Below the pieces are notes generated by a model, which was not told the origin of the DNA, did no database searches, and worked only from the letters and a program-made list of their open reading frames with translations. From Megamonas hypermegale (GTDB lineage Bacteria; Bacillota; Negativicutes; Selenomonadales; Selenomonadaceae): a DNA stretch of 64,000 bases. Positions 5,504 through 58,284 of this stretch are shown one piece after another; position 1 is the stretch's first letter, and each line of letters begins with the position of its first letter. A program made the position numbers and the translations under genes. The DNA lies in assembly GCA_002314325.1 (NCBI GenBank), contig DCFC01000032.1, positions 1 to 64,000 on the forward strand, read 5' to 3'.

Positions 5504-5627
5504 TTGTGCTGGCAAAACATTGAGCCTGTACTCAGCAGTATAATAGTTTATATTCGTTGCCTGTTGGCACTTAACCTCACTAAATATAAACTACTATACT
5601 GCTTTAGGAAATCAACTAGCACAACAG
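5504..5627 (+). repeat. Palindromic MITE-like element, copy 1
   Basis: About 124 bp. Ends TTGTGCTGGC and ACTAGCACAACAG are imperfect inverted repeats. The inner arms AGCAGTATAATAGTTTATAT and ATATAAACTACTATACTGCT pair, enclosing a conserved loop with GGCACTTAACCTCACTAAA. It lies 34 nt upstream of the DUF362 start. No clear flanking duplication was seen for this copy. See the other copies at 17913, 20814, 28577, 31742, 51924 and 58156. Confidence 0.88.
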
Positions 5628-5661
5628 ATTATAAATGAAAATGATAAAGGAGGATTTTATC

Positions 5662-6657
5662 ATGAAACCTACAGCTAGAGTCGGCGGAGAACATTATATT
5701 CCGTACAGTGAACGCACAGGAGAAAAATCCGTCGTGTATTTTACGCGGGACCTTTCGGCGGAAGGGCTGAAAAAAATCTATGACCGGGTAAAAGAAAATA
5801 TGACGGGCAAAATCGGTATTAAACTGCATACGGGTGAACCGCACGGACCGAATATCATCCCGCGTCCGTGGGTGGAAAATCTGATTAAAACGGAGCTGCC
5901 GGAAGCTTCAATCGTTGAAACGAATACGTATTATGACGGCGGACGCTATACGACGGCGCAGCATCTGGAAACGCTGAAGACAAACGGCTGGACATTCTGC
6001 CCGGTGGATATCATGGATGACGGCGAACAGACGGTTGCATTTCCGATAAAAAACGGTAAATGGTTCACAGAAATGTATATGGGAAAAAACCTTGCCGACT
6101 ATAATTCGCTGTTCGTACTTACGCATTTTAAAGGCCATACGATGGGCGGCTTCGGCGGCTCGGCGAAAAATATCGGTATCGGCTGTGCCGACGGACGCAT
6201 TGGCAAAGCTATGATACACACGGTCGAAGGTTCTGCCGAACAGTGGAGTATCTCTAAAGAAGAATTTATGGAAAGAATGATGGAATCGGCAAAAGCCGTT
6301 GTCGACCATTTCGGTAAAAACATCACTTTCGTAAATGTTCTGCGCAACATGTCCGTATCCTGCGACTGCGAAGGAACGGCAGCTCAGCCGGTAGTTACGC
6401 CGAATATCGGGATTGTAGCCTCATTGGATATTCTGGCAGTCGACCAGGCTTCGGTGGACTTAGTCTATGCGCTGAAAGACGGCGACAGAAAGGCTTTAGT
6501 CAAACGTATTCAGTCGCGTCACGGTCTGCGTCAGCTCACTTATATGAAAGAGCTCGGCATGGGCAATGACCGATACCATTTAATCGACATAGATAACGAT
6601 GATAAGGAAATTACACTGCAGGAAGCAGTAAAAGACGTTATGCCGTTTAAAGCATAA
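5662..6657 (+). CDS. DUF362 domain-containing protein
   Basis: Protein of 331 aa matching the DUF362 pattern: VGIKLHTGEPHG-like segment near residue 50 (here GIKLHTGEPHGPN), VLTHFKGHTMGGFGGSAKN near 155 and CDCEG near 232. Family members usually carry ferredoxin domains; this one keeps only scattered cysteines and has no CxxCxxC cluster. Biochemical function of the family is not established. The ATG at 5662 is chosen over 5635 because AAGGAGG (5647-5653) precedes it by 8 nt. No signal peptide is visible, so it is cytoplasmic. Monocistronic: repeat copy 1 lies upstream and a terminator follows. Confidence 0.85.
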   Translation: MKPTARVGGEHYIPYSERTGEKSVVYFTRDLSAEGLKKIYDRVKENMTGKIGIKLHTGEPHGPNIIPRPWVENLIKTELPEASIVETNTYYDGGRYTTAQHLETLKTNGWTFCPVDIMDDGEQTVAFPIKNGKWFTEMYMGKNLADYNSLFVLTHFKGHTMGGFGGSAKNIGIGCADGRIGKAMIHTVEGSAEQWSISKEEFMERMMESAKAVVDHFGKNITFVNVLRNMSVSCDCEGTAAQPVVTPNIGIVASLDILAVDQASVDLVYALKDGDRKALVKRIQSRHGLRQLTYMKELGMGNDRYHLIDIDNDDKEITLQEAVKDVMPFKA

Positions 6658-6670
6658 AATATCATAAAAG

Positions 6671-6708
6671 AAAAAACCTTGTGCACGATTAAATGCACAA
6701 GGTTTTTT
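6671..6708. terminator. Bidirectional rho-independent terminator
   Basis: Perfect stem AAAAAACCTTGTGCA / TGCACAAGGTTTTTT with an 8-nt loop, between the convergent DUF362 and rubrerythrin genes. Confidence 0.92.
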
Positions 6709-6722
6709 CTTTTTAGGAGAAA

Positions 6723-7256
6723 TTAATAATTAGTTGCCTTGATTTCAAAGAATGCTTTCGGATGAGCGCATACTGGGCAGATTTCCGGAGCCTCTGTTCC
6801 TTCATATACATGACCGCAGTTGGAGCACATCCAAATCATTTTTTCATTGCGTTTGAATACTTTGTCTTCCTGAATGTTAGCCAGTAAGATATTGTAGCGT
6901 TCATCGTGTTCTTTTTCGATTTTGGCTACCATTTCAAACAGGTTGGCAATGCGGGTGAAGCCTTCTTCGCGCGCCACTTTGGCGAATTCCGGATACATGG
7001 AAGTCCATTCTTCATGTTCACCGGCAGCAGCGGCTTTTAAATTTTCTTCCGTAGTACCGATTTTATCTACGAGTTTGAACCAGATTTTAGCATGTTCTTT
7101 TTCGTTTCCGGCCGTTTCTTCAAAGATTTTGGCAATCTGTACATAGCCGTCTTTTTTTGCTTTGGAGGCAAAATAAGTGTATTTGTTGCGTGCCTGGGAT
7201 TCACCGGCAAAAGCTGCCCATAAATTCTGTTCTGTCTTACTTCCTTTTAATTCCAT
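6723..7256 (-). CDS. rbr: Rubrerythrin
   Basis: Non-haem iron peroxidase that reduces H2O2 in anaerobes using reduced rubredoxin or ferredoxin; cytoplasmic. The ferritin-like domain (about 1-135) carries the diiron ligands in GESQARNKY, ETAGNEKEHAK, AAGEHEEW and EKEHDERY. The C-terminal rubredoxin domain (about 140-177) has CSNCGHVYEG and CPVCAHP, i.e. two CxxC pairs. Length 177 aa is normal. The ATG at 7256 is preferred to an upstream frame start because AAAGGG lies 8 nt before it and the family starts with MELKGSKT. The AT-rich region upstream holds a palindrome TATTAATTAATA (7311-7322), a possible PerR-type site, which is an inference. Confidence 0.95.
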   Translation of the reverse strand: MELKGSKTEQNLWAAFAGESQARNKYTYFASKAKKDGYVQIAKIFEETAGNEKEHAKIWFKLVDKIGTTEENLKAAAAGEHEEWTSMYPEFAKVAREEGFTRIANLFEMVAKIEKEHDERYNILLANIQEDKVFKRNEKMIWMCSNCGHVYEGTEAPEICPVCAHPKAFFEIKATNY

Positions 7257-7402
7257 CAAAATCGCCCTTTCTATAAAAATATACACAAAATCCGAATAAA
7301 AAATAATTGTTATTAATTAATATTATATAGCATTTTATAAAATAGTCAAGCATTTTTCATATTTTTTTGCTATAAATTGTTTTGAAAGATATATTGTATA
7401 CA

Positions 7403-7433
7403 TTTACAATTTTACAGTTTTTTGTTATATAAT
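7403..7433 (+). promoter_or_regulatory. Probable promoter of the oxidoreductase operon
   Basis: TTTACA (7403-7408) followed after 17-19 nt by TATATA/TATAAT (7426-7433), about 100 nt before the TTG start of the ferredoxin subunit. The spacer is ambiguous and the site is read by eye. The rest of the 7257-7532 gap is AT-rich and contains no gene. Confidence 0.45.
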
Positions 7434-7532
7434 AGAATTCGTGATTAACAACAAAGATTGCATTTATTAGATTTTTGCTGTTAATATTTATGTTGATTTT
7501 TTGTATATATTTGTAAGTTTGGAAGTGAAGCT

Positions 7533-7730
7533 TTGAAAAGTGTTATTTACTTGAAAACTGAAAGATGCAAAGGCTGCGGTATATGCGTAGCTTTCTGTCC
7601 GAAAAAAGTTTTACAGTTAGACGTTTTAAATCATTGTCAGATAATTGATGCCGATGCGTGTATCGGCTGCGGTCAGTGTGAACTGCGCTGTCCTGATTAC
7701 GCTATTTTTGTAGATAAGGAGGAAGATTGA
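7533..7730 (+). CDS. 2-oxoacid:ferredoxin oxidoreductase delta subunit (2[4Fe-4S])
   Basis: Small ferredoxin subunit (65 aa) with two clusters, CKGCGICVAFCP (residues 12-23) and CIGCGQCELRCP (residues 47-58), that takes electrons from the catalytic subunits. It starts at TTG with a weak upstream GGAAGTGAAG and overlaps the alpha gene by one base (TGATG). The delta-alpha-beta-gamma order and separate small subunits are typical of Kor/Vor enzymes, as opposed to the single-chain pyruvate enzyme. Confidence 0.93.
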   Translation: MKSVIYLKTERCKGCGICVAFCPKKVLQLDVLNHCQIIDADACIGCGQCELRCPDYAIFVDKEED

Positions 7731-8872
7731 TGATTAAATTAATGCAGGGCAATGAAGCGTGCAGTTACGGCGCACTTGCCGCCGGTGTACGTTTTTTTGC
7801 CGGTTATCCGATTACTCCGTCAACGGAAATAGCAGAAACAATGGCGAAACTTCTGCCGAAAATGGGCGGCAAATTCATTCAGATGGAAGATGAAATAGCC
7901 AGCATGGGCGCCGTTTTGGGCGCATCGCTTGCCGGTGAAAAAGTTTTGACAGCGACATCAGGTCCGGGTTTTTCGCTCAAACAGGAATTAATCGGTTATG
8001 CCTGCGCTGCTGAAATTCCGGTCGTTATCGCCAATGTGCAGCGTGTCGGTCCGTCTACCGGTCAGCCGACTTCACCGGCGCAGGGAGATATCATGCAGGC
8101 GCGCTGGGGTACGCACGGCGACCATTCCATTATTGCACTTTCGCCGTGGAGTGTGAGGGAAACGTTCGATGTTACCGTTATGGCAGTAAATTATGCGGAA
8201 CGTTTCCGCACGCCGGTTATTTTGCTGATGGATGAAATTGTCGGTCATCTGCGCGAAAATATCGATGTGCCGGAAAAAGAAGATATCGCAGTTTTTCCGC
8301 GCCGTCAGCCGAAAACAGCTCCGTCGCCGGAGTATAGAGCATATGGGCCGGATACGGATTTAGTGCCGAATATTGCCGATTTCGGCAAAGGGTACCATAT
8401 TCACGTAACGGGTCTTATTCATGATGAAACGGGCTTCCCGTCCGGCAGTCCGCAGGTAACGCGCGAAGTTATCGACAGACTGCATAAGAAAATAGATATT
8501 GCCAGTGACGAAATCTGTCATTATGAAGCGTACAATATGGAAGACGCGCAGTATGCTATTGTAAGTTACGGCGGAACGGCGCGCACTGCGTATGAAGCGA
8601 TGCAGAGCGCCCGCGCCAAAGGCTATAAAGTGGGCATGGTGCGCCTTATAACCATTTGGCCGTTTGCCGATAAAGTAATTAATAAATTGGCGGATAAAGT
8701 AAAAGCCGTTTTAGTGCCGGAGCTCAATTACGGTCAGCTGGTGCATGAAGTAGAGCGTGCAAGCTGCGGCAAGTGTCAGGTGGAATTTCTCGGTAAATAC
8801 GATACGCAGATTTTCACGCCGGATGAAATTGAAACGGCGATTATTAAAATGTGTGAAGGGGGCAATAATTAA
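7730..8872 (+). CDS. 2-oxoacid:ferredoxin oxidoreductase alpha subunit (KorA/VorB)
   Basis: Catalytic alpha subunit (380 aa) of a CoA-dependent 2-oxoacid:ferredoxin oxidoreductase, which oxidatively decarboxylates 2-oxoglutarate or branched-chain 2-oxoacids to acyl-CoA and reduced ferredoxin. The sequence shows GNEACSYGALAAG and the family motif GYPITPSTEIAE near residue 25, and TSGPGFSLKQE near 80. Its start at ATG 7730 overlaps the delta stop, with AAGGAGGAAGAT in front. Substrate (2-oxoglutarate or 2-oxoisovalerate) cannot be decided from sequence alone. Confidence 0.93.
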   Translation: MIKLMQGNEACSYGALAAGVRFFAGYPITPSTEIAETMAKLLPKMGGKFIQMEDEIASMGAVLGASLAGEKVLTATSGPGFSLKQELIGYACAAEIPVVIANVQRVGPSTGQPTSPAQGDIMQARWGTHGDHSIIALSPWSVRETFDVTVMAVNYAERFRTPVILLMDEIVGHLRENIDVPEKEDIAVFPRRQPKTAPSPEYRAYGPDTDLVPNIADFGKGYHIHVTGLIHDETGFPSGSPQVTREVIDRLHKKIDIASDEICHYEAYNMEDAQYAIVSYGGTARTAYEAMQSARAKGYKVGMVRLITIWPFADKVINKLADKVKAVLVPELNYGQLVHEVERASCGKCQVEFLGKYDTQIFTPDEIETAIIKMCEGGNN

Positions 8873-9696
8873 TGAAAGAAAGAATTTATGAACAGTATTT
8901 CCGTCAAAACCGCCTTCCGCATTTATGGTGCCCGGGCTGCGGCAACGGAATTGTCATGAAAGCCATCGTAGAGGCTGTTGTCAAACAAAATCTCGACCCG
9001 GATAAAACGGTTATCGTATCCGGTATCGGCTGTTCCTCACGTGCTTCTGGTTATATGGATTTTGACACACTGCATACGGCACACGGCCGCGCTATTCCGT
9101 TCGCCACAGGAATTAAACTGGCAAGACCGGAGCTTAATGTCATCGTCATAACGGGCGACGGCGACTGCATGGCAATCGGCGGAAATCATTTTATTCACGG
9201 AGCAAGACGCAATGTCGATTTAACGGTTGTATTATTCAATAATAATATTTACGGCATGACGGGCGGACAGGCTTCGCCGACGACACCGCTCGACAAAAAA
9301 GCGACGACTGCACCGTACGGCTCGGTGGATAATCCGTTCGACCCGTGTTCTTTGGCAGCAGCAGCCGGTGCGACATATGTTGCCAGAAGTACGGCTTATC
9401 ACGTGCCGCATTTAATCAATATGATAGCAGGCGGCATTGAAAATAAAGGTTTCTCCCTTATAGAAGCAATCGTACAGTGCCCGACGGCATTCGGCCGCAA
9501 GAATAAAATGGCCGACCCGGCGCAGATGATGATGTGGATGCGCGATAATGGCGTGATGAAACCGGCATTTGATAAACTGGCAGAGGATAAAAAAGCGGGC
9601 AAATTCCCGATTGGACTGTTGCATCAGCACCAATCCATTGATTATGACAATGCGTATGATAAAGTCATTGAAATAGCTGGAGGTGCGGTAAAATGA
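8872..9696 (+). CDS. 2-oxoacid:ferredoxin oxidoreductase beta subunit, TPP-binding
   Basis: Thiamine diphosphate-binding beta subunit (274 aa). It has WCPGCGNGI near residue 19 (cysteines typical of the family), GIGCSSRASGYMDF near 50 and the TPP motif GDGDCMAIGGNHFIHGARRN near 98-117 with the following NN of FNNNIYGMTGG. It begins within the alpha stop (TAATG) and ends in a 4-nt ATGA overlap with gamma, so the subunits are tightly coupled and should be made in equal amounts. Confidence 0.94.
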   Translation: MKERIYEQYFRQNRLPHLWCPGCGNGIVMKAIVEAVVKQNLDPDKTVIVSGIGCSSRASGYMDFDTLHTAHGRAIPFATGIKLARPELNVIVITGDGDCMAIGGNHFIHGARRNVDLTVVLFNNNIYGMTGGQASPTTPLDKKATTAPYGSVDNPFDPCSLAAAAGATYVARSTAYHVPHLINMIAGGIENKGFSLIEAIVQCPTAFGRKNKMADPAQMMMWMRDNGVMKPAFDKLAEDKKAGKFPIGLLHQHQSIDYDNAYDKVIEIAGGAVK

Positions 9697-10217
9697 TGAA
9701 ACAGCTTCGATTATCCGGCTCCGGCGGCCAGGGTGTAATTACGGCGGCGATTATTTTTGCCGAAGCGGCAGTAAGTGAAGGCAAACAGGCGGTTCAGTCC
9801 CAGTCATACGGACCGGAAGCGCGCGGCGGTGCTTCCAAAGCGGAAGTAATCATCTCCGACAGCGCTATTTATCATCCGAAAGTTACGAAACCGGATATAG
9901 TGCTTGCCATGACGCAGAAAGCGGCTGATAAATATTTCAGTGATTTGGATAAGGACAACGGCTTGCTGATTGTCGATGAAGATTTAGTGCCGAATGTGCC
10001 GAATTTTCCGCATGTAATAAAAGTGCCGATTACAAAAATGGCTTCTGAAAAACTTGGTAAACTCCTGTTTGCCAATATCGTAGCACTCGGCATAATGGTA
10101 AAACTTTCCGGCATTGTTTCGCTGGATACGGTAAAACAGTCCGTAGCCAACCGCGTACCGCCGCATACGGTGGATAAAAACATGCAGGCTTTAGAACTCG
10201 GTTATAATGCTGTATAA
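9693..10217 (+). CDS. 2-oxoacid:ferredoxin oxidoreductase gamma subunit
   Basis: Gamma subunit (174 aa) of the same complex, with the characteristic SGSGGQGVITAA at the N-terminus and SYGPEARGGASKAEV near residue 40. This subunit completes the CoA-binding part. It is the last gene of the operon and a terminator follows. The complex supplies succinyl-CoA or branched-chain acyl-CoA, or runs in reverse to make 2-oxoacids for amino-acid synthesis, in an anaerobe lacking the lipoamide dehydrogenase complexes. Confidence 0.93.
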   Translation: MMKQLRLSGSGGQGVITAAIIFAEAAVSEGKQAVQSQSYGPEARGGASKAEVIISDSAIYHPKVTKPDIVLAMTQKAADKYFSDLDKDNGLLIVDEDLVPNVPNFPHVIKVPITKMASEKLGKLLFANIVALGIMVKLSGIVSLDTVKQSVANRVPPHTVDKNMQALELGYNAV

Positions 10218-10232
10218 ATTATGTAACAAAAA

Positions 10233-10637: not shown

Positions 10638-10642
10638 TTTAA

Positions 10643-17758: not shown

Positions 17759-17912
17759 TATCTTTTTGTAAACTTTACAAAAGTAACTTGTCGTGTCAGT
17801 AAAATATCAGACCTGCATCATAAGCATAGTAGTTGATATTCGTTTGAAGTAAAGATAATAGATTAATTGAAATGGTTTTCCGCTATGTTGTATAATTTTA
17901 TGTATAACTTTA

Positions 17913-18040
17913 CTTGTTGTGCTAGTAAAACATCGAGCTTGTAATCAGCAGTATAATACTTTACATTCGTTCGATGTTAGCACTTAACCTCACTAAATGT
18001 AAAGTATTATACTGCTTTGGCAAACAAACTAGTACAACAG
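17913..18040 (+). repeat. Palindromic MITE-like element, copy 2, with 11-nt duplication
   Basis: Ends CTTGTTGTGCTAGT and ACTAGTACAACAG. Arms AGCAGTATAATACTTTACAT and ATGTAAAGTATTATACTGCT. The element is flanked by an exact direct repeat GTATAACTTTA at 17902-17912 and 18041-18051. Compared with copy 1, GTTTATA/TATAAAC has become CTTTACA/TGTAAAG, a change on both arms that keeps pairing. It lies just upstream of the next gene. A degenerate fragment like its left arm is seen around 17830-17856. Confidence 0.92.
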
Positions 18041-18069
18041 GTATAACTTTATATAATGGAGATAAAGAA

Positions 18070-19182
18070 ATGAATGAAGATAAATGGAAACAAACCATAG
18101 CTAAAAGGCGGCAGGCGCGCTATAGGGAGAACAGACTGGGCTGTCTGTTCATCGTAGTGGTGCTGATAGCTGCCTTAATCGGCGGTGCATATTATATTTA
18201 TCATGAACATACGCACAGTCCTGAATATACACTGGAAAAACTGCAGGAGGCTTTTGCCGACAGAGATGTGGAGAAAATTCATAGATACATTGATTTCAAA
18301 GCTGTAATTCCGCCGAATTACAAAGTGCTCACCAACGACATTTTTGCTAACGATACGATTTATACAGAGAAGGAACGGGATGTATATCAGACTTTTTACG
18401 CCATAATCGAGCCGATTATTACGGACGGGGTAATTCAGAGCGTGGATAAATACATTCAGACGGGCAACTGGCAGCGGTATAATTACAATTCCATGCTGAA
18501 AGGGCGGCAGCTCGGTATAGATTATGCTGAACTCATCAACCGTTCCCTGCTGTTCAACATTGCATTCAAAGAGGTAAAATCGATTGAAAATGTTGATGAT
18601 ACGCATGCTGTGGCTGTCTTAGCAGTTGCAGACAAGTATACGCAGACGGATTTTGATTTGCATATAACGATGACGAAAAATGATAGTGATGACTGGATAG
18701 TGACAAGGGTTGACAATTATCAGGAGTATCTTAATAATATATCCAAACTGTACCGCGAGGATATCAACAGCTATCTGGCGGCGACAAAAGCGGATTTGGA
18801 CAGAAGCAATGCCCGTTTCGGTCAGTTGAAAAGCGAGTTTACTGTATTGGCGGAAGGGTTGAAAAATAATCCGTCGGACAGTCAGAAAGCGTTGCTGAAA
18901 TCGTATATTGAAAATAAAATCATACCGGCGTATCAGGATTGGTACAATTATCTGCAGAATAACCATATACCGCTCGGTGCGCGTCATCTGCACGAGCTGC
19001 GGCTGGAAAGCGCTTCCTACAGCATTCAGGCATGGAAAAAATATGCTGACGGTATTTATAAAAATGACTACAAAGAACTGGGCGAAGCAGAACGCATTCA
19101 CAATAAAGCGATGGAAACGGAGCAGAAGGTAACGGATACGATAAACAATATGCCGGCGCTGTTCATGCCTACGGTTGACTGA
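18070..19182 (+). CDS. Single-pass membrane protein, DUF2939-like
   Basis: Protein of 370 aa with a basic cytoplasmic head (about 1-20), one membrane helix (about 22-42, LFIVVVLIAALIGGAYYI) and a large outer domain. Just outside the membrane it reads SPEYTLEKLQEAFADRDVEK, resembling DUF2939-type proteins, which also follow a membrane anchor with an alpha-helical segment of this kind. The remainder is charged and helical. Function is unknown. The start at 18070 is used because the longer frame from 17974 begins inside the repeat element and lacks a ribosome site, whereas GGAG precedes 18070. Single-gene unit with its own terminator. Confidence 0.72.
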   Translation: MNEDKWKQTIAKRRQARYRENRLGCLFIVVVLIAALIGGAYYIYHEHTHSPEYTLEKLQEAFADRDVEKIHRYIDFKAVIPPNYKVLTNDIFANDTIYTEKERDVYQTFYAIIEPIITDGVIQSVDKYIQTGNWQRYNYNSMLKGRQLGIDYAELINRSLLFNIAFKEVKSIENVDDTHAVAVLAVADKYTQTDFDLHITMTKNDSDDWIVTRVDNYQEYLNNISKLYREDINSYLAATKADLDRSNARFGQLKSEFTVLAEGLKNNPSDSQKALLKSYIENKIIPAYQDWYNYLQNNHIPLGARHLHELRLESASYSIQAWKKYADGIYKNDYKELGEAERIHNKAMETEQKVTDTINNMPALFMPTVD

Positions 19183-20662: not shown

Positions 20663-20813
20663 GAAATTATCCTTTCTTTGGTTATGCAACTAATACAACT
20701 AATATATTGTAGCGTAGGAACAGAAATAAAGGCAACAGAAAATAAATTTATTTTTTTCCAGTGTAAATATGTTCACTTTTATGATACAATTTTGCTTTAG
20801 ATACTATTTTAAA

Positions 20814-20943
20814 CCCTTTGTGCCAGCAAAACATTGAACCTGTAATCAGCAGTATAATACTTTATATATCTTCGATGTTGTCACTTAACCTCACTAAATA
20901 TAAAGTATTATACTGCTTTGAAAAATAAACTGGCACAATAAGT
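20814..20943 (+). repeat. Palindromic MITE-like element, copy 3, with 9-nt duplication
   Basis: Ends CCCTTTGTGCCAG and CTGGCACAATAAGT, arms AGCAGTATAATACTTTATAT and ATATAAAGTATTATACTGCT. Flanked by an exact direct repeat TATTTTAAA at 20805-20813 and 20944-20952. The outer arms read TGCCAG/CTGGCA, where copies 5 and 6 read TGCTAG/CTAGCA, again a paired change. It fills much of the parB-metH gap and ends 21 nt before the next start codon. Confidence 0.92.
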
Positions 20944-20964
20944 TATTTTAAAGGAAGATATATC

Positions 20965-21678
20965 ATGCCTAAATACAATACAGCATTGATGTCGATTGAC
21001 ATCAAAGAGACAAGACGGTATGCCGGACTGAATAAAGCGCCGGATTTTAATAAAAAAACGGTAAAGGAAGCGTGCCGCGAAATTTTATACGTTGCCGAGC
21101 CGCGCGGTTCATGGGAAGTATATGATTATGACGCGCAGAACGGTATAGTGCTTGCACCTGTGCCGTTCAAGCTGGAAGGCAAGAAAGTGACGCAGCATCT
21201 GTGCCGCGCGCAGAAAGTGATTATTATGGCGGTAACTATCGGTGAAGCGGTGGAAGAAGAGATAGCGCGCCGTTTCAAAGACGGCGAATATACTCTGGCC
21301 GTGCTCATGGATGCTGCTGCCACTACAGCGGTGGAACAGGTGGCGGATGGTATTGAGAAAGCCGTTGACCAAAAGTTTGCCGTGCAGGGCTTTGTGCGCC
21401 GCTGGCGCTTCAGTCCCGGTTACGGTGACTGGCCGATTGAATGTCAGACGCGCATGCTGGAGCTTTCGCAGGCGGACAAAATCGGTATGGGTGTTACGTC
21501 GTCGCTTATGCTCACGCCGCGCAAATCGGTTACAGCGATAATCGGTCTTGTACCGAAAACGGACGATGTGGCGGCGGAAAAGCAGTCGTGCAAATTCTGC
21601 CCGAAGCCGGACTGCAATTTCCGGACGAGACCGTTTGAACCGCTGGTGAATGATGAAATTTCAGATGAAGGGAAATAA
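20965..21678 (+). CDS. Methionine synthase reactivation (activation) domain protein
   Basis: Protein of 237 aa corresponding to the C-terminal AdoMet-binding activation domain of MetH, here on its own chain. It starts IDIKETRRYAGLNK, a form of the family entry motif, and contains VTIGEAVEEEI, an alanine-rich helix around DAAATTAVEQVAD and the conserved RFSPGYGDWPIECQ segment near residue 150. MTPRKSVTAIIGL and a cysteine-rich tail (CKFCPKPDCNFR) follow. It should reductively remethylate oxidised cob(II)alamin on MetH. The metH gene starts 5 nt downstream, so the pair is one operon. The ribosome site is AAAGGAAG. Confidence 0.9.
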   Translation: MPKYNTALMSIDIKETRRYAGLNKAPDFNKKTVKEACREILYVAEPRGSWEVYDYDAQNGIVLAPVPFKLEGKKVTQHLCRAQKVIIMAVTIGEAVEEEIARRFKDGEYTLAVLMDAAATTAVEQVADGIEKAVDQKFAVQGFVRRWRFSPGYGDWPIECQTRMLELSQADKIGMGVTSSLMLTPRKSVTAIIGLVPKTDDVAAEKQSCKFCPKPDCNFRTRPFEPLVNDEISDEGK

Positions 21679-28419: not shown

Positions 28420-28576
28420 AATAATCCTCCTGAAGCTTAATAAAATATTGCATAAATCTAGATTTATTTATTAATTTTCAATATATTTGAATTATATCAA
28501 CTATCGGTTTTTATTATCTATAAATTATTGTTATATTATCGTTAAATATACTTAAATATCTTGTTATATTGTATAC

Positions 28577-28643
28577 CTGTTGTGCCAGTAAAAACATATA
28601 GTCTAGCAGTATAATACTGCTTAGAAAATCAAGTAGCGTAATA
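28577..28643 (+). repeat. Palindromic MITE-like element, copy 4, internally deleted
   Basis: Left end CTGTTGTGCCAGTAAAAACAT and inner AGCAGTATAATACTGCT are kept, but the loop with the TTAACCTCACTAAA core and most of the arms are gone. The right end AAGTAGCGTAATAA is degenerate. It lies upstream of the phytase pair. The rest of the 28420-28739 gap holds the phytase promoter region (AT-rich, no clear boxes chosen) and a terminator. Confidence 0.75.
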
Positions 28644-28684
28644 AATAAAAAGAAACTCATTCAAATTGATGAATGAGTTTTAAA
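28641..28684. terminator. Terminator of the metallophosphoesterase gene
   Basis: Stem AAACTCATTCA / TGAATGAGTTT with a 6-nt loop. On the minus strand it is followed by TTCTTTTTATTTATT, so it can end transcription coming from the gene at 28740-31655. Confidence 0.8.
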
Positions 28685-31655: not shown

Positions 31656-31698
31656 GATACATAAAACTCCTCTGCCAATTTACTAATTCTGATTTATT

Positions 31699-31942
31699 AT
31701 GCTGATTAATAGCAGTATAATACTTTTATATTTAACTAATTCGTTGTGCTAGTAAAATATCGAGCCTTTAAACCAGCAGTATAATAGTTTATATTCGTTT
31801 GATGTTGTCACTTAACCTCACTAAATACAAACTATTATACTGCTTTGAGAAATTAACTAGCACAAAAAGCTTAATTAAGATTAGATTATCTTAAATGAAT
31901 ATAGAGTATTGTACTGCTATGAACTTTGTATTTTATCAGCAT
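31699..31942 (+). repeat. Older palindromic element split by copy 5 (nested insertion)
   Basis: Outer arms ATGCTGATTAATAGCAGTAT (from 31700) with TACTTTTATATTTAA, and TTAAATGAATATAGAGTATT with GTACTGCTATGA and ATCAGCATA (to 31942), pair with each other and resemble the inner arms of the family. The complete copy 5 lies in the middle where the loop would be. This looks like a young copy inserted in a decayed one. The whole 31656-31999 gap is made of these repeats plus short AT-rich flanks. Confidence 0.65.
31742..31867 (+). repeat. Palindromic MITE-like element, copy 5
   Basis: Ends CGTTGTGCTAGT and ACTAGCACAAAAAG, arms AGCAGTATAATAGTTTATAT and ACAAACTATTATACTGCT, loop with CACTTAACCTCACTAAA. 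Flanking repeats are imperfect (TTAACTAATT and TTAATTAAG). Confidence 0.9.
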
Positions 31943-31999
31943 AGTAAATTAATTTTATATTGTAGTTATTTTTATTTTAGCGCAAGACTTCTTTCTGTG

Positions 32000-46123: not shown

Positions 46124-46133
46124 TTATGTAGAA

Positions 46134-46200
46134 ACTGTGTAACTGACGGAAGTGGAGTTAACCACATGAAGCACAGTATATTAAAGCCGACCGTCTGGGC
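46134..46200 (+). ncRNA. ZTP (pfl) riboswitch
   Basis: The aptamer pattern of the ZTP/pfl class is present in order. P1 is ACTGTG (46134-46139) with CACAGT (46172-46177). Then come AACTGACGGAAG and the P2 stem GTGG/CCAC (46152-46155 and 46162-46165), followed by ATGAAG. The 3' half is GCCGACCGTCTGGGC (46186-46200). ACGG at 46146-46149 can pair with CCGT at 46191-46194 as the expected pseudoknot. It senses ZTP/ZMP, signs of low 10-formyl-tetrahydrofolate. The next gene, AICAR transformylase, uses ZMP and that folate, an exact functional fit. No intrinsic terminator is seen, so control may be of translation at the GGAGG 20 nt downstream. Confidence 0.9.
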
Positions 46201-46233
46201 AAAATAAATTTTAATCTATTGGAGGAAATCGTA

Positions 46234-48966: not shown

Positions 48967-50643
48967 ATGGATAAGGGTGTAAATCTCACCGCTGGAAAAA
49001 AATATATTGCAGATGGATTTACTATAACTAAACCCGTTGTTTGTGCTGTTTTAGCTGTAATATGCGTATTATACATCTGGCATCTCGGTTTTTATCCGCT
49101 GATAAATCCCGATGAAGGCAGATATGCGGAAATTCCGCGGGAAATGCTGGCGAGCGGCAATTTCATCACACCGCATCTAAACGGCGTGGAATATTTTGAA
49201 AAACCGGCTCTGCAATACTGGATTACGGCTGTTTTCATGCTGATTTTCGGACAGAATGAATTTGCCGCGCGGCTGTTTCCGGCACTGTGCGCTTTGGGCG
49301 GGATTTTTTGTACATATTATCTGGGCTGGAAAATGTTTGACCGCAGGACGGGCTTTTTGGCTATGACGGTCGTAGCGACTTCATTTTTGTATTTTGTAAT
49401 CGGCTCATTGAATATACTGGACATGGCTGTGTCGTTTTTTATAACATTGTGCATGACAGCTTTTTACCGGTTCGGTGTTACGGGCAAAAAATATTTTCTG
49501 TACGTATTTTATGCTTCCATGGCGTTGGGTTTACTGACGAAAGGACTTATAGCTATTGTACTGACGGTGGGCATTATTGCCGTATACGCTTTATGTACGA
49601 AGCAGCTTCGTCTGCTGTTTAAATTGTTTTCGCCTGTCGGCATCGGTATTTTCCTGCTGATAAGCGTGCCGTGGTTTTATCTCGTATGCAGGGATAATCC
49701 TGATTTTTTCTATTTCTTTTTCATTCATGAACATTTTCTGCGCTATCTGACGACGGTGCATGACCGTTATCAGCCGTTTTATTTTTTTGCGCCGTGCCTT
49801 ATTTTAGGTCTGTTTCCTTGGGTTGGGTTTTTATTTACTTCACTGCCGGGAAGAAAAATGTGGCAAAGGTTTAAAAACAGTACCAAATGCAGTGAATATA
49901 TTTATCTGCTCGTCTGGTTCGGCATAATATTCGTGTTCTTTTCGCTGTCGGACTCCAAGCTTGTGCCGTATATTGTACCGTGCTTTCCGCCGCTGGCTGT
50001 TTTGATTGCAACAAGGCTGACGAGCGCGTCTGATTTTAAACGGCCGCTTATTATCAATGCAGTTATGGCTTTTCTGCTGGTAACGGCTCTGGCTGTTACG
50101 GCATGGCGGAATGATTTCGTATCTGTACGGGAATTTATTTTATTCGGCTGTCCGTTAATTATTATTCTCGTTTTTTCCAATATATTTAATTTAATTTTAT
50201 GGTTTAAACATAAAAATGCAAGTCAGGTTATATGTATGTCCATTGCGGCAGGGATTTTATTCTGTTTTTCGCTTCAGCCGATAATCACGGAAGTAGCGGA
50301 GCACCGCAGCGGCAAGGAAATGGCACAGACTGTCAATCTTTGGAAAAATCCCGATACGTTCATTATCGGTTATCAGGAATACGTACAGGATTTGCCGTTT
50401 TATACAAAGTCGCGCGTAGCTTTGTACGACTGCTATGATGAATTGAAATTCGGCTCTGAGCATGAGAGCGGACGCGGCTGGTTTTGGGATAAAGAAACTT
50501 TGCTGAATACATGGAACAGCAGGGACAATATTATTTTGGTCGTGCCGCAGAAAAAGAGGGAAGACTGTTTTAAGACAATGAATTTGGATTTGACGAAATT
50601 ACGTCATCGGGAATTTGAACGGTATATAGTAATCATGAAATGA
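48967..50643 (+). CDS. ArnT-like lipid A / undecaprenyl-linked sugar glycosyltransferase, paralogue 1
   Basis: GT83-type inner-membrane glycosyltransferase of 558 aa. About twelve hydrophobic helices are visible, with the first periplasmic loop NPDEGRYAEIPREMLASG (about 37-54) holding the acidic residues of this family and HLNGVEYFEKPALQYW close behind. A soluble periplasmic C-terminus follows (about 430-558). ArnT moves 4-amino-4-deoxy-L-arabinose from undecaprenyl phosphate to lipid A, lowering affinity for cationic peptides. This copy lies 9.5 kb from the main arn cluster but has the same promoter design; a different donor sugar or acceptor is possible. Confidence 0.88.
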   Translation: MDKGVNLTAGKKYIADGFTITKPVVCAVLAVICVLYIWHLGFYPLINPDEGRYAEIPREMLASGNFITPHLNGVEYFEKPALQYWITAVFMLIFGQNEFAARLFPALCALGGIFCTYYLGWKMFDRRTGFLAMTVVATSFLYFVIGSLNILDMAVSFFITLCMTAFYRFGVTGKKYFLYVFYASMALGLLTKGLIAIVLTVGIIAVYALCTKQLRLLFKLFSPVGIGIFLLISVPWFYLVCRDNPDFFYFFFIHEHFLRYLTTVHDRYQPFYFFAPCLILGLFPWVGFLFTSLPGRKMWQRFKNSTKCSEYIYLLVWFGIIFVFFSLSDSKLVPYIVPCFPPLAVLIATRLTSASDFKRPLIINAVMAFLLVTALAVTAWRNDFVSVREFILFGCPLIIILVFSNIFNLILWFKHKNASQVICMSIAAGILFCFSLQPIITEVAEHRSGKEMAQTVNLWKNPDTFIIGYQEYVQDLPFYTKSRVALYDCYDELKFGSEHESGRGWFWDKETLLNTWNSRDNIILVVPQKKREDCFKTMNLDLTKLRHREFERYIVIMK

Positions 50644-51884: not shown

Positions 51885-51923
51885 AACATTTCACCTCAAA
51901 AAATTTTTATTATGTGTTATTAT

Positions 51924-52051
51924 CCGTTGTGCTAGTAAAACATTGAGCCTGTAGCCAGCAGTATAATAGTTTATATTTGTTCGATGTTGGCACTTAACCT
52001 CACTAAATATAAACTATTATACTGCTTTGAGAAATCAACTAGCACAACAAG
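51924..52051 (+). repeat. Palindromic MITE-like element, copy 6
   Basis: Ends CCGTTGTGCTAGT and ACTAGCACAACAAG, arms AGCAGTATAATAGTTTATAT and ATATAAACTATTATACTGCT, loop with GGCACTTAACCTCACTAAA. Flanked by TATTAT on both sides (51918-51923 and 52052-52057). It lies between the SMR gene and the transketolase operon; 52058-52216 is AT-rich with nothing else recognised. Confidence 0.92.
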
Positions 52052-52216
52052 TATTATACTAATACGGTATTATGAAAATAACATAAAACAATTATAATCG
52101 TTGTGATTTCAAATAGCTACTGCGGATTTTGTTTATGATGAAATTCAACGTTCATTAATGATAATTATACTAAAATAAATTTTTAAAAAATTAATAAAAA
52201 AATAGCAAAAAAGATA

Positions 52217-53157: not shown

Positions 53158-54095
53158 TGGATACTACGAAAAAAATTGCAACGAGAAACGGTTTCGGTGA
53201 AGAAATTGTTACACTTGGTAAAAATAACGATAAAATTTATGTTATCGACAATGATATAGGTAAATCCTGCAAAACGGGCGCATTCATGAAAGAACTGCCG
53301 AACCAGTACCTGAACGTAGGTATTGCAGAACAGAACGGCGCCGGCGTAGCAGCAGGTCTGGCTACATGCGGTAAAATTCCATTCGTTGTAACGTATGCTG
53401 TTTTCGGTTCCCTGCGTATGTGCGAACAAATCCGTCAGGAAATCTGCTATCCGAACCTCAACGTAAAGTTCGCCTGCTCGCACGGCGGCGTTACTCCGGC
53501 AAATGACGGTGCCAGCCATCAGGCGATTGAAGATATGGGCGTGCTTCGTACTCTTCCGAATATGACGGTTATCATGCCGGCTGATTATTATTCCGCGAAA
53601 AAACTCGTAGCGGCAGCTGCTGAAATGTACGGTCCTGTATTTTTAAGATTTACGCGCGACAATATTCCTGTTATTTATGATGAAAATACGGAATTTGAAA
53701 TCGGTAAAGCTGTAAAACTTTCCGAAGGCAAAGATGTGGCTATCATCGCTAACGGCGATACGGTCCGTCTCGGTATCGAAGCTAAGGAAGCATTGGAAAA
53801 AGAAGGTATTTCCGTTCGTCTGCTCGATATGCACACGATTAAACCGCTCGATAAAGAAGCTGTTGTTGCCTGCGTAAATGATATCGGCAAAATCATCACA
53901 GTGGAAGACCATAACATCATCAACGGTCTCGGCAGTGCCGTATGCGAAGTCGCAGCTGAAATGGGCAAGGGCAAAGTTCACCGTATCGGTATCCAGGACC
54001 AGTTCGGTCAGTCCGCACCGTATGAAAGACTGCTCGCTATGAACGGCATCACGGTGGAAAATATCATCGAACAGGCGAAAGCCATTCAGAAATAA
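53157..54095 (+). CDS. Transketolase, C-terminal subunit
   Basis: Second half (312 aa) with the pyrimidine-binding domain: YLNVGIAEQNGAGVAAGLA near residue 50 contains the catalytic Glu, and CSHGGVTPANDGASHQAIED near 103 follows. The C-terminal transketolase domain (about 185-312) is complete. Together with the N-terminal subunit it transfers two-carbon ketol groups between sugar phosphates. The SDR gene starts 46 nt later with its own AAAGGAG site. Confidence 0.92.
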   Translation: MDTTKKIATRNGFGEEIVTLGKNNDKIYVIDNDIGKSCKTGAFMKELPNQYLNVGIAEQNGAGVAAGLATCGKIPFVVTYAVFGSLRMCEQIRQEICYPNLNVKFACSHGGVTPANDGASHQAIEDMGVLRTLPNMTVIMPADYYSAKKLVAAAAEMYGPVFLRFTRDNIPVIYDENTEFEIGKAVKLSEGKDVAIIANGDTVRLGIEAKEALEKEGISVRLLDMHTIKPLDKEAVVACVNDIGKIITVEDHNIINGLGSAVCEVAAEMGKGKVHRIGIQDQFGQSAPYERLLAMNGITVENIIEQAKAIQK

Positions 54096-54141
54096 GAAAC
54101 GCTAAATTTATATAAAAAAATTAAACAAAGGAGTCTTTAAT

Positions 54142-54900
54142 ATGTTAGATTTTACAGATCAGGTCGTTATCGTAACAGGCAGCGGTTCGCCAAAAGGTAT
54201 GGGCCGCGTTATTGCTAAAACATTTGCAGATAGAGGTGCAAAACTCGTTATCGTTGATATCAACGAAGCCGGTGTAAATGAAACGGTGGATATTCTCAAA
54301 CAGGCAGGTCATGAAGCTATCGGTCTTAAAGTGGACATCACTTCCAAAGAATCCGTTGACGCTATGGTTCAGACTGTTTTAGACAAATATGGACGCATCG
54401 ACGTACTTGTAAACAATGCGGGTATTTCGCAGAAAGTTACAGTTGAAGATATGACTCTGGATGATATGAAACGCATTTTCAGCGTAAATATGTTCGGTTT
54501 GTTCTTATGTACTCAGGCGGTGCTTAAACCGATGAAAGCGCAGAAATACGGCCGTATCGTTAATCTGTCCTCCGTATCCGGCAAACGCGGCGGCGGTATT
54601 TTCGGCGGTGCTCACTATTCCGCTTCCAAAGCAGGCGTACTCGGTTTCTCCAAAAACCTGGCGCGTGAAGTAGCAGCTGACGGCATTACTGTAAACAGCG
54701 TATGTCCTGGTCTCATCAATACGGAAATCTGGAAATCCCTGCCGAAGGAACAGGCTGATAAAGTCATTGCCGATATTCCGGCAGGCCGTCCGGGTGAACC
54801 GCAGGAAGTTGCCAATACCATCTGCTTCTTAGGTTCGAAAGAAGCTTCTTATATTACCGGTGAAGATATCGATATCAACGGCGGTTCCCATATGGACTAA
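54142..54900 (+). CDS. Short-chain dehydrogenase/reductase
   Basis: Classical SDR of 252 aa: the nucleotide-binding TGSGSPKGMGR (residues 12-22), VDINEAG (Asp 38 suggests NAD), NNAG near 92, the catalytic Ser in NLSSVSG near 143 and YSASK near 157. The C-terminus DINGGSHMD is typical. It probably oxidises or reduces a polyol or sugar acid that feeds the transketolase. The substrate cannot be named from sequence. A terminator follows. Confidence 0.9.
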   Translation: MLDFTDQVVIVTGSGSPKGMGRVIAKTFADRGAKLVIVDINEAGVNETVDILKQAGHEAIGLKVDITSKESVDAMVQTVLDKYGRIDVLVNNAGISQKVTVEDMTLDDMKRIFSVNMFGLFLCTQAVLKPMKAQKYGRIVNLSSVSGKRGGGIFGGAHYSASKAGVLGFSKNLAREVAADGITVNSVCPGLINTEIWKSLPKEQADKVIADIPAGRPGEPQEVANTICFLGSKEASYITGEDIDINGGSHMD

Positions 54901-54950
54901 AAAAACAGATTATCTTGCTATTTTCTTTAATAATATACCCCCATCTTAGA

Positions 54951-54982
54951 GCAGCAGGATACAACCTATCCTGCTGTTTTTG
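54951..54982 (+). terminator. Rho-independent terminator
   Basis: Stem CAGCAGGAT / ATCCTGCTG with a 7-nt loop and TTTTTG. It lies between the SDR and the transporter gene; it may be partial, so that the transporter and reductase are expressed less than the enzymes before it. Confidence 0.82.
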
Positions 54983-55025
54983 TTTGTAAGTTTATATGTT
55001 CGGATTATTTTAGGAGGTAATTTTT

Positions 55026-56327
55026 ATGGCTCGTTCTATAGCGGAAATTGAACACAGTACTGTCAGAAAAGTTTCAAAACGCTTAATTCCGTTTCTATTC
55101 CTTTGTTTCGCAATTTCAATTTTGGACAGACTCAATATCTCGTTTGCAGCATTGCAGATGAATGAAACGCTTAATTTTTCCAATGAAGTTTACGGTCTCG
55201 GTGCAGGTATTTTCTTTATCGGTTATTTTCTGTTGGAAGTACCGGGCGGTGCTTTGATGACGAAGTTCGGCGCGAGAAAATGGATTTCCCGCATCATGAT
55301 TTCCTGGGGTATCATCTCCGGTCTTACGGCATTCGTTACGACTCCGGCGCAGTTTTATGCTGTTCGCTTTGCACTCGGTGTAGCGGAAGCCTCCTTCTTC
55401 CCGTGCATGGCGTGGTATCTCAGCCAGTGGTATCAGACGAAACATCATGCCAGAGCACTCGCCGGTTTCATGGCGGCAATCCCGGCGGCATCAGCGCTCG
55501 GTTCGCCGATTTCCGGTTATCTGCTCACTTTGGATTTATGGGGCTTTCACGGCTGGCAGAACCTGTTTATTTTAGAAGCAATTCCGTCCGTCATCTTAGG
55601 TGTTATTACGTATTTCTATCTCACGGATAAAATTGATGATGCCAAATGGCTGGAAGCTGATGAAAAAGATTGGCTCAAAAAAGTTCTGGCCAGAGAAGAA
55701 GCGATTAAACGTAAAAAGAAATCCATCACTTTCATGCAGGCTTTAAAAGAACGCGATGTATTAATTCTGGCATGCGCATATTTCTGCTGGATGGCAGGTT
55801 ACTACGGTGTAATCATGTTCTTGCCTACATTAATTCACAGCCTGTCCAGCTCTATGGGAACAAGCATGCTCGGCTGGCTTATCGGTTTCATGTATTTACT
55901 GGCGGCTATCACTATGGTTTCTGTCGGCAGAAGTTCGGATAAAAGACAGGAACGCCGCTTCCATGTGGCAACTTCTCTCATTGTTTCGGCTATCGGTCTC
56001 GTTATTTCCGTATACGTGGCGGAAATTAATACGATACTTGCTATCGTTATTTACACTATCAGCTTGTGCGGTGCATACGGCGCATACACTCCGTTCTGGG
56101 CAATTCCTCCATCCTATTTATCGGGCAGCGCTGTAGCAGCAGGTATCGCGCTTATAAACAGTGTCGGCAATCTGGGCGGTTTCTTCGGTCCGTACATCTT
56201 AGGCGCTCTGTCTTCTTCGACCGGTTCGTATACAACGGGTATCTTTGCATTGGCCGGATTTATGATTTTAAGCAGTTTAATTGTAATATTTGTCATTAAG
56301 CAGACAGGTAAAGTTGTTAATTCGTGA
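55026..56327 (+). CDS. MFS transporter, anion:cation symporter (sugar acid) family
   Basis: Twelve-helix carrier (433 aa) of the ACS family, which takes up hexuronates, galactonate, glucarate, tartrate or similar acids with protons. It starts with a basic head and RLIPFLFLCFAISILDRLNI, as in ExuT/GudP relatives, and has GAGIFFIGYFLLEVPGGALM near residue 60 and the LGVAEASFFPCMAWYLSQWY segment near 120. Placed between the SDR and tartronate semialdehyde reductase genes, it should import the operon's substrate. AGGAGG ribosome site. Confidence 0.9.
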   Translation: MARSIAEIEHSTVRKVSKRLIPFLFLCFAISILDRLNISFAALQMNETLNFSNEVYGLGAGIFFIGYFLLEVPGGALMTKFGARKWISRIMISWGIISGLTAFVTTPAQFYAVRFALGVAEASFFPCMAWYLSQWYQTKHHARALAGFMAAIPAASALGSPISGYLLTLDLWGFHGWQNLFILEAIPSVILGVITYFYLTDKIDDAKWLEADEKDWLKKVLAREEAIKRKKKSITFMQALKERDVLILACAYFCWMAGYYGVIMFLPTLIHSLSSSMGTSMLGWLIGFMYLLAAITMVSVGRSSDKRQERRFHVATSLIVSAIGLVISVYVAEINTILAIVIYTISLCGAYGAYTPFWAIPPSYLSGSAVAAGIALINSVGNLGGFFGPYILGALSSSTGSYTTGIFALAGFMILSSLIVIFVIKQTGKVVNS

Positions 56328-56367
56328 TAATTTTTGCATTAAAATTTAAAATGCGGGAGGCTTTAAC

Positions 56368-57255
56368 ATGAAGATCGGATTTATCGGACTAGGAATTATG
56401 GGCAAACCAATGAGCAGAAATCTGCTGAAGGCAGGTTTTGAGCTCATAGTATATGATATAGATGAAACAGCTGTAAAAATTATCGAAAAAGCCGGTGCCA
56501 AGCCGGCTTCCTCCCCGAAAGAAGTCGCGCAAAACAGCGATGTTATAATAACGATGCTTCCCAAAGCTTCGATCGGAAAATCCGTGCTTGAAGATGAAAA
56601 CGGTATTTTGGCCGGTATAAAAGAAAATTCTGTAGTTATTGACATGAGTTCCGTTTCGCCGGTAGCGTCAAAAGAGTTTGCGCAGCTGATGGAAGCGAAA
56701 AAATGTAAGTTCCTCGATGCTCCTGTAAGCGGCGGAGAAATAGGTGCGGTAAATGCTACAATGGCAATCATGATTGGCGGAGATGAGGCCGTTGTGGAAA
56801 GAGTCCGTCCTATTTTGGAAGCTTTGGGAAAATCTATTACAGTAGTTGGTCCTAACGGCAGCGGTTCCGTTGCCAAACTTGCCAATCAGATTATGGTGAA
56901 TTTGAATATAGCGGCGGTGGCGGAAGCGCTGGTGCTGGCAACAAAAGCGGGAGCCGACCCGAAAAAAGTGTTTGAAGCGGTGCGCGGCGGCTTTGCGGGC
57001 AGTGCGGTTTTGGAAGAAAAAGCCCCGATGATGTATTCGCGCAATTTTAAAGCGGGCGGGCCGATTTACATCAATCTGAAAGATATTACCAATGTTGTGG
57101 CTACGGCTGATGAACTTGATGTTCCGCTTATCTTGACACCGCAGCTCAAAGAAATAATGATTTCGCTGAAAGCAACGGGTCATAATAATGACGACCACAG
57201 CAGTATTGTTCAATTTTATGAAAAAATTGCCGGTGTAACGGTAAAAGCAAAATAA
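56368..57255 (+). CDS. 2-hydroxy-3-oxopropionate (tartronate semialdehyde) reductase family protein
   Basis: Beta-hydroxyacid dehydrogenase of 295 aa, best fitting GarR/GlxR, which reduce tartronate semialdehyde to D-glycerate. It has the Rossmann start GFIGLGIMGKPMSRNLLKAG, the substrate loop DAPVSGGEIGA near residue 119, and GSGSVAKLANQI with the catalytic Lys near 171. 3-hydroxyisobutyrate dehydrogenase activity is the main alternative. Its product would be used by the glycerate kinase at 1.8 kb. Last gene of the cluster. Confidence 0.9.
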   Translation: MKIGFIGLGIMGKPMSRNLLKAGFELIVYDIDETAVKIIEKAGAKPASSPKEVAQNSDVIITMLPKASIGKSVLEDENGILAGIKENSVVIDMSSVSPVASKEFAQLMEAKKCKFLDAPVSGGEIGAVNATMAIMIGGDEAVVERVRPILEALGKSITVVGPNGSGSVAKLANQIMVNLNIAAVAEALVLATKAGADPKKVFEAVRGGFAGSAVLEEKAPMMYSRNFKAGGPIYINLKDITNVVATADELDVPLILTPQLKEIMISLKATGHNNDDHSSIVQFYEKIAGVTVKAK

Positions 57256-57257
57256 AT

Positions 57258-57352
57258 AAAAAAAGGAATTGTCGTAAATGGCAATTCCTTTTTTATTTTA
57301 GATGATTTTATGTGCATTTTTCTCTAAATCTAGAGAAGAATGCACATAAAAT
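57258..57352. terminator. Terminator pair between convergent garR-like and fadR-like genes
   Basis: First hairpin: AAAAAAAGGAATTG / CAATTCCTTTTTTATTT (57258-57298), a bidirectional terminator. Second: ATTTTATGTGCATT with AATGCACATAAAAT (57305-57352) enclosing TCTCTA/TAGAGA, an almost perfect long stem without a clear T run, which may protect the 3' end of the minus-strand message. Confidence 0.82.
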
Positions 57353-57369
57353 ATAATGGAAATGAAAAA

Positions 57370-58065
57370 TCATTCTTTGGCAAAAGAATCAATGAGTGTA
57401 GCTTCAACCGTATCATATACGCGGAGAATATCGCGCTGTTCAATCAAGTCGACGATAGCATAATGATTTTTGAGGCATAAATCAATGCCGCCTTCTTTTT
57501 GCAGTACTTTTTTTATTGACGGTTCAAACATTAAAACGAGCGTTTCGAGGATTGAGGTTATCAATTTATTATGTACGCATTTGGCAATGGCGAGATGAAA
57601 CTGCATATCGAGTTTTATCAGATTTTCGACGGAACCCTGTTCCGATTTGGCTACGCGGTTTGTTTCATCGACTAAATCGCGGATGGTTTTGATTTCTTCT
57701 GGCGAAGCCTTCTGTATGGCCATGATGACAACGATGGATTCTACCATCACGCGCAGCTCGAAAACATCGGTCGTATTTTTCGGGTCGAGTATCAAGCGGA
57801 AAATGAGCGGATTGAATACTTCGTGCGAGATAGTATCCTGCAAAAACGTTCCCTGACCGCGTTTCGTTTTTACTACGCCCATAGCGTTTAAGACGCGGAT
57901 AGCTTCGCGCAGAGAATTTCTGCCGACGCCGAGCTGTTCGCACAGCTCCGCTTCAGACGGAAGCTTGTCGCCGGGCTTGAAATCGCCTTCGATAATAGCC
58001 TGCGAGAGCTGTGTAATAATTTCATTTACTAAGGTATCCGAATTACCTATTTTAGCTAATCCCAT
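57370..58065 (-). CDS. FadR/GntR-family transcriptional regulator (FCD domain)
   Basis: Repressor of 231 aa from ATG 58065 (GGTGAAATT in front; the longer frame from 58140 has no ribosome site). The N-terminal winged helix has the GntR signature GDKLPSEAELCEQLGVGRNS and SLREAIRVLNAMGVV. The C-terminal FCD helical domain (about 85-225) has the metal/ligand Asp-His pattern (LDMQFHLAIAKC near 143). It is convergent with the operon it most likely controls; TGGT/ACCA sites occur in that operon's promoter. Confidence 0.92.
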   Translation of the reverse strand: MGLAKIGNSDTLVNEIITQLSQAIIEGDFKPGDKLPSEAELCEQLGVGRNSLREAIRVLNAMGVVKTKRGQGTFLQDTISHEVFNPLIFRLILDPKNTTDVFELRVMVESIVVIMAIQKASPEEIKTIRDLVDETNRVAKSEQGSVENLIKLDMQFHLAIAKCVHNKLITSILETLVLMFEPSIKKVLQKEGGIDLCLKNHYAIVDLIEQRDILRVYDTVEATLIDSFAKE

Positions 58066-58155
58066 AATTTCACCAACTAACAAATTATTTATTTTACATA
58101 GTGAACAGATGTCATGCCGTTTGATTTTGCTTAAGCACAATATCTATTATATATA

Positions 58156-58284
58156 CCCACTGTGCCAGTTAAATTCCTAAAGCAGTATAATACTTTATAT
58201 TTAGTGAGGTTAAGTGACAACAGGCAGCGAATATAAAGTATTACACTGCTTGTTATAGGCTTAATGTTTTACTCGCACAACAAG
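58156..58284 (-). repeat. Palindromic MITE-like element, copy 7, reversed, with 11-nt duplication
   Basis: In opposite orientation to the other copies: the loop reads TTTAGTGAGGTTAAGTGAC, the complement of the family loop. Arms AGCAGTATAATACTTTATAT and ATATAAAGTATTACACTGCT. Flanked by an exact direct repeat TATTATATATA at 58145-58155 and 58285-58295. A further short family-like piece (GAAGCAGTATAAT) lies at 58429-58441. Confidence 0.92.

Follow-up and report, generated by a model that had tools for sequence, protein, structure and literature searches.

Introduction

ERIC, RUP and NEMIS/Correia are palindromic, gene-free intergenic MITEs of 100-150 bp, as is the element described here. They carry TA duplications and other ends, whereas the present element has duplications of 8-9 bp and ends of the IS982 type.

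IS982-derived MITEs are already known. According to the passages of PMC9769881 that deal with them, MITECca01 and MITECca02 of Cardinium cOegib are derived from ISCca4, a member of the IS982 family. Like these, the present element is short, gene-free and non-autonomous, with the ends of an IS982 element, and it has many mostly intergenic copies, a lineage-specific spread and a related variant. It is smaller (131 bp against about 240 bp in those passages). MITECca keeps some parental subterminal sequence, whereas the hairpin found here has no detected relation to IS982; the parent of MITECca lies in the same genome, whereas here matching insertion sequences (ISs) were seen only in relatives.

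In its part on the IS982 family, PMC7335449 gives the end consensus 5'-AC(N)6T(N)5TT, an AC start in 57 of 69 elements, and direct repeats that, when present, measure 2-10 bp. Compared with that account, the present element resembles IS982 ISs in its AC ends, in its fit to the end consensus (the left end is off at one position) and in its 8-9 bp duplications. It differs from them in lacking a transposase gene and in being 131 bp long rather than 845-1282 bp. A literature search combining MITEs with Selenomonas or Negativicutes yielded nothing relevant among the matches listed, and the element may therefore be undescribed in Selenomonas and the Negativicutes.

In this study, we analysed a stretch of DNA of 64 kb, referred to as the window, for which an initial annotation had reported seven intergenic copies of a probable MITE, the last of them reversed.

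Results

Copies of the element in the window

Repeat search and alignment confirmed the element at all seven reported places, with the last copy on the minus strand. All seven are intergenic. They lie in a chromosomal segment of a Selenomonas-like bacterium related to the Selenomonadaceae, and the genes of this segment are ordinary chromosomal ones such as ParB, a MetH-like methionine synthase, a transketolase half and ArnT-like proteins (the scan covered 25 of 89 listed ORFs). The copies had been described as about 125 bp long. The element is indeed short, but the six full copies measure 131-132 bp each, and the copy reported at 28577 is an internally deleted form of 72 bp (Table 1). The list of seven holds, but it did not include further remnants, which occupy the last rows of Table 1.

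Table 1. Copies, target-site duplications (TSDs) and remnants of the element in the 64-kb window.
Feature	Position	Strand	State
Full MITE copy	5499..5629	+	ends AC...AT; no TSD
Full MITE copy	17912..18042	+	ends AC...GT; TSD ATAACTTT
TSD ATAACTTT of the 17912 copy	left 17904..17911, right 18043-18050		
Full MITE copy	20813..20943	+	ends AC...GT; TSD TATTTTAA
TSD TATTTTAA of the 20813 copy	left 20805..20812, right 20944-20951		
Deleted copy, 72 bp	28575..28646	+	loop missing; left end and palindrome around AGCAGTATAATACTGCT present, right end degenerate
Full MITE copy	31739..31870	+	end dinucleotides decayed, AT...GC
Full MITE copy	51922..52052	+	ends AT...GT; no TSD
Full MITE copy	58155..58285	-	ends AC...GT; TSD ATTATATAT
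TSD ATTATATAT of the 58155 copy	left 58146..58154, right 58286-58294		
Decayed left half of a further copy, beside the 17912 copy	17786..17850	+	score 28; shuffle maximum 24 (n=300)
Right-end fragment of a further copy	58414..58450	-	score 27; shuffle maximum 21.5 (n=300)
Older diverged element (about 31697-31943), interrupted by the 31739 copy	left arm 31697..31738, right arm 31871-31943		

The joined arms of the older element scored 39 against the MITE, with a shuffle maximum of 27 (n=300). Its outer ends are TTATGCTGAT and its inner stem, AGCAGTATAATAC, is of the same kind as that of the MITE; it may belong to a separate MITE lineage with ends suited to a different transposase. The six full copies are 80-91% identical to one another, which indicates that the family is not a very recent burst. 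The remnants and the nested insertion suggest several rounds of activity.

A covariance model was built from the six full window copies and two copies from a related genome, G045. The six full copies scored 139.9-152.0 bits, a match by construction since they belong to the training set. The window was scanned with filters off, giving 37 rows to E 10, six of which were the reverse strand of full copies; the short copy at 28575 was found at E 7e-4. A match at 6642-6733 (27.8 bits, E 9e-4, near the score of the short copy) was not counted as a copy: by eye it looks like a terminator hairpin with TTGTGC in it.

Terminal repeats, hairpin and loop

As the initial annotation had stated, terminal inverted repeats are present at both ends; they read about ACTTGTTGTGCTAGT(A/T) and are decayed to varying degree. 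Inside these outer repeats, the consensus has an inner stem of 21 bp and a loop that contains CACTTAACCTCACTAAAT. Inner arms and a conserved loop had been ascribed to every copy: the 18-nt loop is exact in all six full copies (chance expectation, 0.09 matches at up to 3 mismatches), but it is absent from the short copy. When one copy was folded with RNA parameters, the z score was -4.62, and none of 200 shuffles folded equally well. Eight sequences were compared over 39 predicted pairs: four pairs had both partners altered in one or more sequences, and one stem position is C-G in four of the eight and G-C in three.

The element has no gene of its own, in agreement with the initial annotation. 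The only listed ORF of at least 100 aa that starts within a copy is 17974-19182; the colinear gene of G045 aligns from the later ATG at 18070. The MITE had no Rfam match at gathering scores; the sole match in the window was a ZMP/ZTP riboswitch elsewhere (46129-46207, plus strand, 59.8 bits), directly upstream of a gene for a 396-aa protein with an AICARFT/IMPCHase domain. Two ideas about the hairpin were rejected. The loop has what we take to be a likeness to the T3 phage promoter; one base is absent and nothing was found in support. The TATAAT of the stem was considered as a promoter supply and has, by eye, no well-spaced -35 box.

Target-site duplications

Three exact flanking repeats had been reported with lengths of 11, 9 and 11 nt. 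All three exist, but with the ends set at 5'-AC...GT-3' they are ATAACTTT (8 bp), TATTTTAA (8 bp) and ATTATATAT (9 bp); the earlier lengths were too long because they included letters of the element's own ends. Thus three of the seven window copies have an exact TSD and four do not. The flanks of the 31739 copy, TTAACTA and TTAATTA, agree by eye at 6 of 7 letters.

The window copies with a TSD are exactly the three in which the outermost AC and GT are intact at both ends. When the two G045 copies were included, a TSD was present in 3/3 copies with intact AC and GT and in 0/6 with a damaged end (four in the window, two in G045); the chance of such a split is 1/84 by hand calculation. At a spacing of 131 bp, away from the listed copies, exact 8-mer pairs occurred at 7 and 9-mer pairs at 1 of 62,376 window positions. 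This corresponds to about 1e-4 or less per site, so that three duplications among the seven window copies lie far above chance. A second null at 130 bp gave 4 (8-mer) and 6 (9-mer) of 63,800 and was partly contaminated, four of the six nine-mer matches being at listed copies.

Empty sites in relatives

The window MetH is 65-69% identical to that of nine named Selenomonadaceae loci, including Selenomonas, Anaerovibrio and Megamonas. Two further Selenomonadaceae genomes, G045 and G044, were closer (91% and 84%). In G045, the nearest relative compared, one stretch is largely colinear with the window in blocks of 68-83% DNA identity, with the main breaks at window 26.4-35.2 and 37.3-44.9 kb.

At the four directly comparable sites, those of the 17912, 20813, 51922 and 58155 copies, the element is absent from G045, and hence it is not always present in relatives; the outcome that the initial annotation had named as refuting its reading did not occur. 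The 20813 site is a clean empty site, at which the G045 sequence runs through with a single TATTTTAA; the element is likewise absent there from G044. The other three sites are element-free, with flanks drifted or altered and junctions that are not clean. Around the 5499 site, G045 lacks a longer stretch that includes the DUF362 gene, and the 28575 and 31739 copies have no counterpart region in G045. With the covariance model, full copies were also lacking from eight loci of 20 kb each (160 kb), taken in or near the colinear parts of G045 and G044, and from five IS-bearing loci; these 13 loci amount to 181,322 bases and gave four partial matches, up to E 1.

Other differences were seen along the same alignment. 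The 26.4-35.2 kb region, which has no counterpart at this place in G045, is lower in G+C and holds a metallophosphatase gene as well as, at its edge, genes with PTP-like phytase domains. Opposite window 54096-54142, G045 has an extra hairpin, CAGTAGTGTAATATTTTGTATT..., between two genes (locus L048, about 1088-1214); the window has none at this place, which makes it a reciprocal case of an extra palindrome. The window also contains two ArnT-like paralogues, at 48967-50643 and 58528-60177, with 72-75% DNA likeness over repeated stretches.

Distribution outside the window

In blastn searches with one copy, none of nine genomes of named relatives matched, one of 189 family genomes matched, and there was no match in plasmids or phages. 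With the covariance model at E 0.001, one of 189 family genomes and one of 380 class genomes matched, always G045. Because searches of this size score few candidates in each genome, they miss weak copies. Exact-pattern scans for the loop or an arm gave no match in genome contigs or viral contigs; either these sets do not include the host, or its copies depart from the pattern. No MITE was found in G044 with the covariance model (best E 0.73, with 150 candidates scored out of 694).

G045 holds two copies of its own elsewhere, of 132 and 124 bp, together with diverged relatives. Nine weak model matches were compared with shuffles. Two loci of G045, L090 and L091, were clearly above, scoring 41 and 41.5 where the maximum of 200 shuffles was 26.5; L094, L097 and L098, also of G045, were barely above; and L089, L056 and L092 of G045 and L088 of G044 were not above, L056 nevertheless showing TIR-like ends by eye. 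L090 looks related to the older window element at 31697-31943 (TATGCTAATT). At about 1489-1626, L090 contains a diverged hairpin element flanked by the direct repeat TATATGTAATAATT (starts 1489 and 1613), and this repeat exceeds an IS982 duplication in length.

IS982 elements with matching ends

G044 contains a 966-bp element encoding a 294-residue transposase of the IS982 family (NF033520, 246 bits, cut-off 130), with ends ACGTATTGTGCTAGTT and ACTCATTGTGCTAGTT. Two near-identical intact copies are present, along with a third, decayed relative that ends in ACCTGTTGTGTTAGTT and ATCCGTTGTGCTAGTT. In all, three transposases from relatives were assigned to IS982 by NF033520 (246-255 bits, cut-off 130), and their elements are 966, 1034 and 1029 bp long. 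Eleven of the 189 family genomes encode relatives of the G044 transposase. Of 19 transposase matches, 15 were inspected for ends: seven had a recognisable pair, one a single end and seven none. Two of the seven elements with end pairs are flanked by exact duplications, of 7 bp and 6 bp; neither intact G044 copy is.

Six of these seven elements were compared with the MITE, one damaged pair being omitted. Over the first 16 letters, each IS end agreed at 13-15 positions with whichever MITE end fitted better (12-15 when both MITE ends are counted), and the best match, between the 3' end of the G075 element and the MITE right end, was 19/20. Elements with MITE-like ends were found in genomes G044, G075, G082 and G083. 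Matches of at least 13 of 16 occurred 10 times in 110,985 positions (one strand of the window plus the relatives' loci), the true MITE and IS ends included. The MITE right end, ACTTGTTGTGCTAGTT, fits the consensus AC(N)6T(N)5TT in full; the left end has TA, not TT, at consensus positions 15-16, and the end AC is mutated in several copies. The MITE duplications fall within the published IS982 range. The initial annotation had looked to an IS with the same ends and duplications of 9-11 bp: such ends are those of the IS982 elements in relatives, but the duplications of the MITE are 8-9 bp.

Allowing one mismatch, the end motif matched 22 times in G045 (14 for the reversed control) and 22 times in G044 (16), a mild enrichment of the motif by itself in both genomes; some of the G044 matches coincide with independently found DDE transposases. 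Among plasmids, 1028 records encode a transposase relative, all below 60% identity. One IS982 element on a Lactiplantibacillus plasmid, the only plasmid record inspected for ends, has ACCCGTTGTGCTAGTT at both ends.

No IS982 transposase was found in the window by tblastn with four IS982 proteins (best E 0.24, chance level). Together with the matching-end ISs of relatives, this fits the earlier proposal that the transposase is encoded elsewhere. In G045, which has two MITE copies, neither a DDE_Tnp_1 gene nor a relative of the G044 transposase was found. We also considered whether the MITE interior arose from an IS982 element by internal deletion, and found no support for it: when three MITE interiors were compared with six IS982 elements, no similarity was found, every score being lower than the best of 60 shuffles. 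This outcome lowers the case for derivation from IS982, not that for mobilisation by IS982.

Discussion

The initial view of a non-autonomous MITE agrees with TSDs in three of seven copies, a clean empty site, three further element-free sites and the lack of a gene. We consider it highly probable that the element is an IS982-type MITE, moved by a transposase of the IS982 family. The repeats, their ends, the duplications, the empty site and the IS982 elements with matching ends in relatives are direct observations; from them we infer that an IS982 element present now or formerly in this host did the moving. Several results count against this reading: four of the seven window copies have no TSD, the window has no IS982 transposase, the left MITE end departs from the consensus, the end motif by itself is only mildly enriched, and of the two relatives G045 showed MITE copies but no such transposase, and G044 intact IS982 copies, themselves without duplications, but no MITE.

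A transposase of another family, for example of the IS4, IS256 or ISAs1 type, could have moved the MITE, its likeness to IS982 ends being a matter of chance. Duplications of 8-9 bp are not exclusive to IS982 (PMC7335449, where it treats IS4, gives 4-13 bp), and no driver was seen in the 64 kb searched. However, the 16-nt ends match IS982 ends at 13-15 positions in several Selenomonadaceae genomes, they also resemble the ends of the Lactiplantibacillus plasmid element, and matches of this quality are as rare as the 110,985-position count indicates, all of which makes such a coincidence quite unlikely. Still less likely, and in our judgement very improbable, is an origin without transposition, in which a hairpin with a regulatory or structural role (REP-like, terminator-like or an mRNA 5' leader) was kept for its function and spread by recombination. 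The strong fold, the conserved loop, the stem position changed on both sides in three of eight sequences and the three copies placed 21-32 nt upstream of start codons, in gene direction, would suit a functional hairpin. Exact duplications, an empty site, a nested insertion and transposon-type ends argue against it as the origin, as does the lack of an Rfam match at gathering scores, and the empty site with its single copy of the duplication largely refutes it.

For the IS982-type MITE, the following mechanism can be proposed. Each copy would keep just the ends of about 16 bp (about AC-YYGTTGTGCTAGTT) that an IS982-family transposase recognises, and these would enclose an unrelated AT-rich interior able to fold into a hairpin whose stem measures 21 bp and whose loop is conserved. 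A full IS982 element at another genomic locus, with ends like ACYTGTTGTGCTAGT, would supply the transposase in trans; this enzyme would bind the MITE at its two ends and join it to an AT-rich intergenic target, and insertion would leave the 8-9 bp duplications. Speculatively, the interior hairpin might help the two ends to meet, or might simply have been captured.

A secondary function of the hairpin may exist. The copies upstream of genes lie 32 nt from the ATG (5662) of the DUF362 gene (5499 copy), 27 nt from the probable ATG at 18070 (17912 copy) and 21 nt from the ATG at 20965 (20813 copy); judged by these positions, an effect on expression of the downstream gene is plausible. Although we regard this as unlikely, the inner hairpin and loop might even be a functional module carried in this genus by several MITE lineages whose ends differ; it could, for instance, serve in the 5' leader as an RNA element that acts on the gene behind it.

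The family adds a well-documented bacterial MITE for which a mobilising family can be named and a clean empty site is at hand. It also offers a decay series, from copies with intact ends and TSDs, through copies with damaged ends and none, to nested and fragmentary copies. Copies near start codons could alter the expression of ordinary metabolic genes, and, if the module reading were true, transposition would distribute a regulatory hairpin to gene starts.
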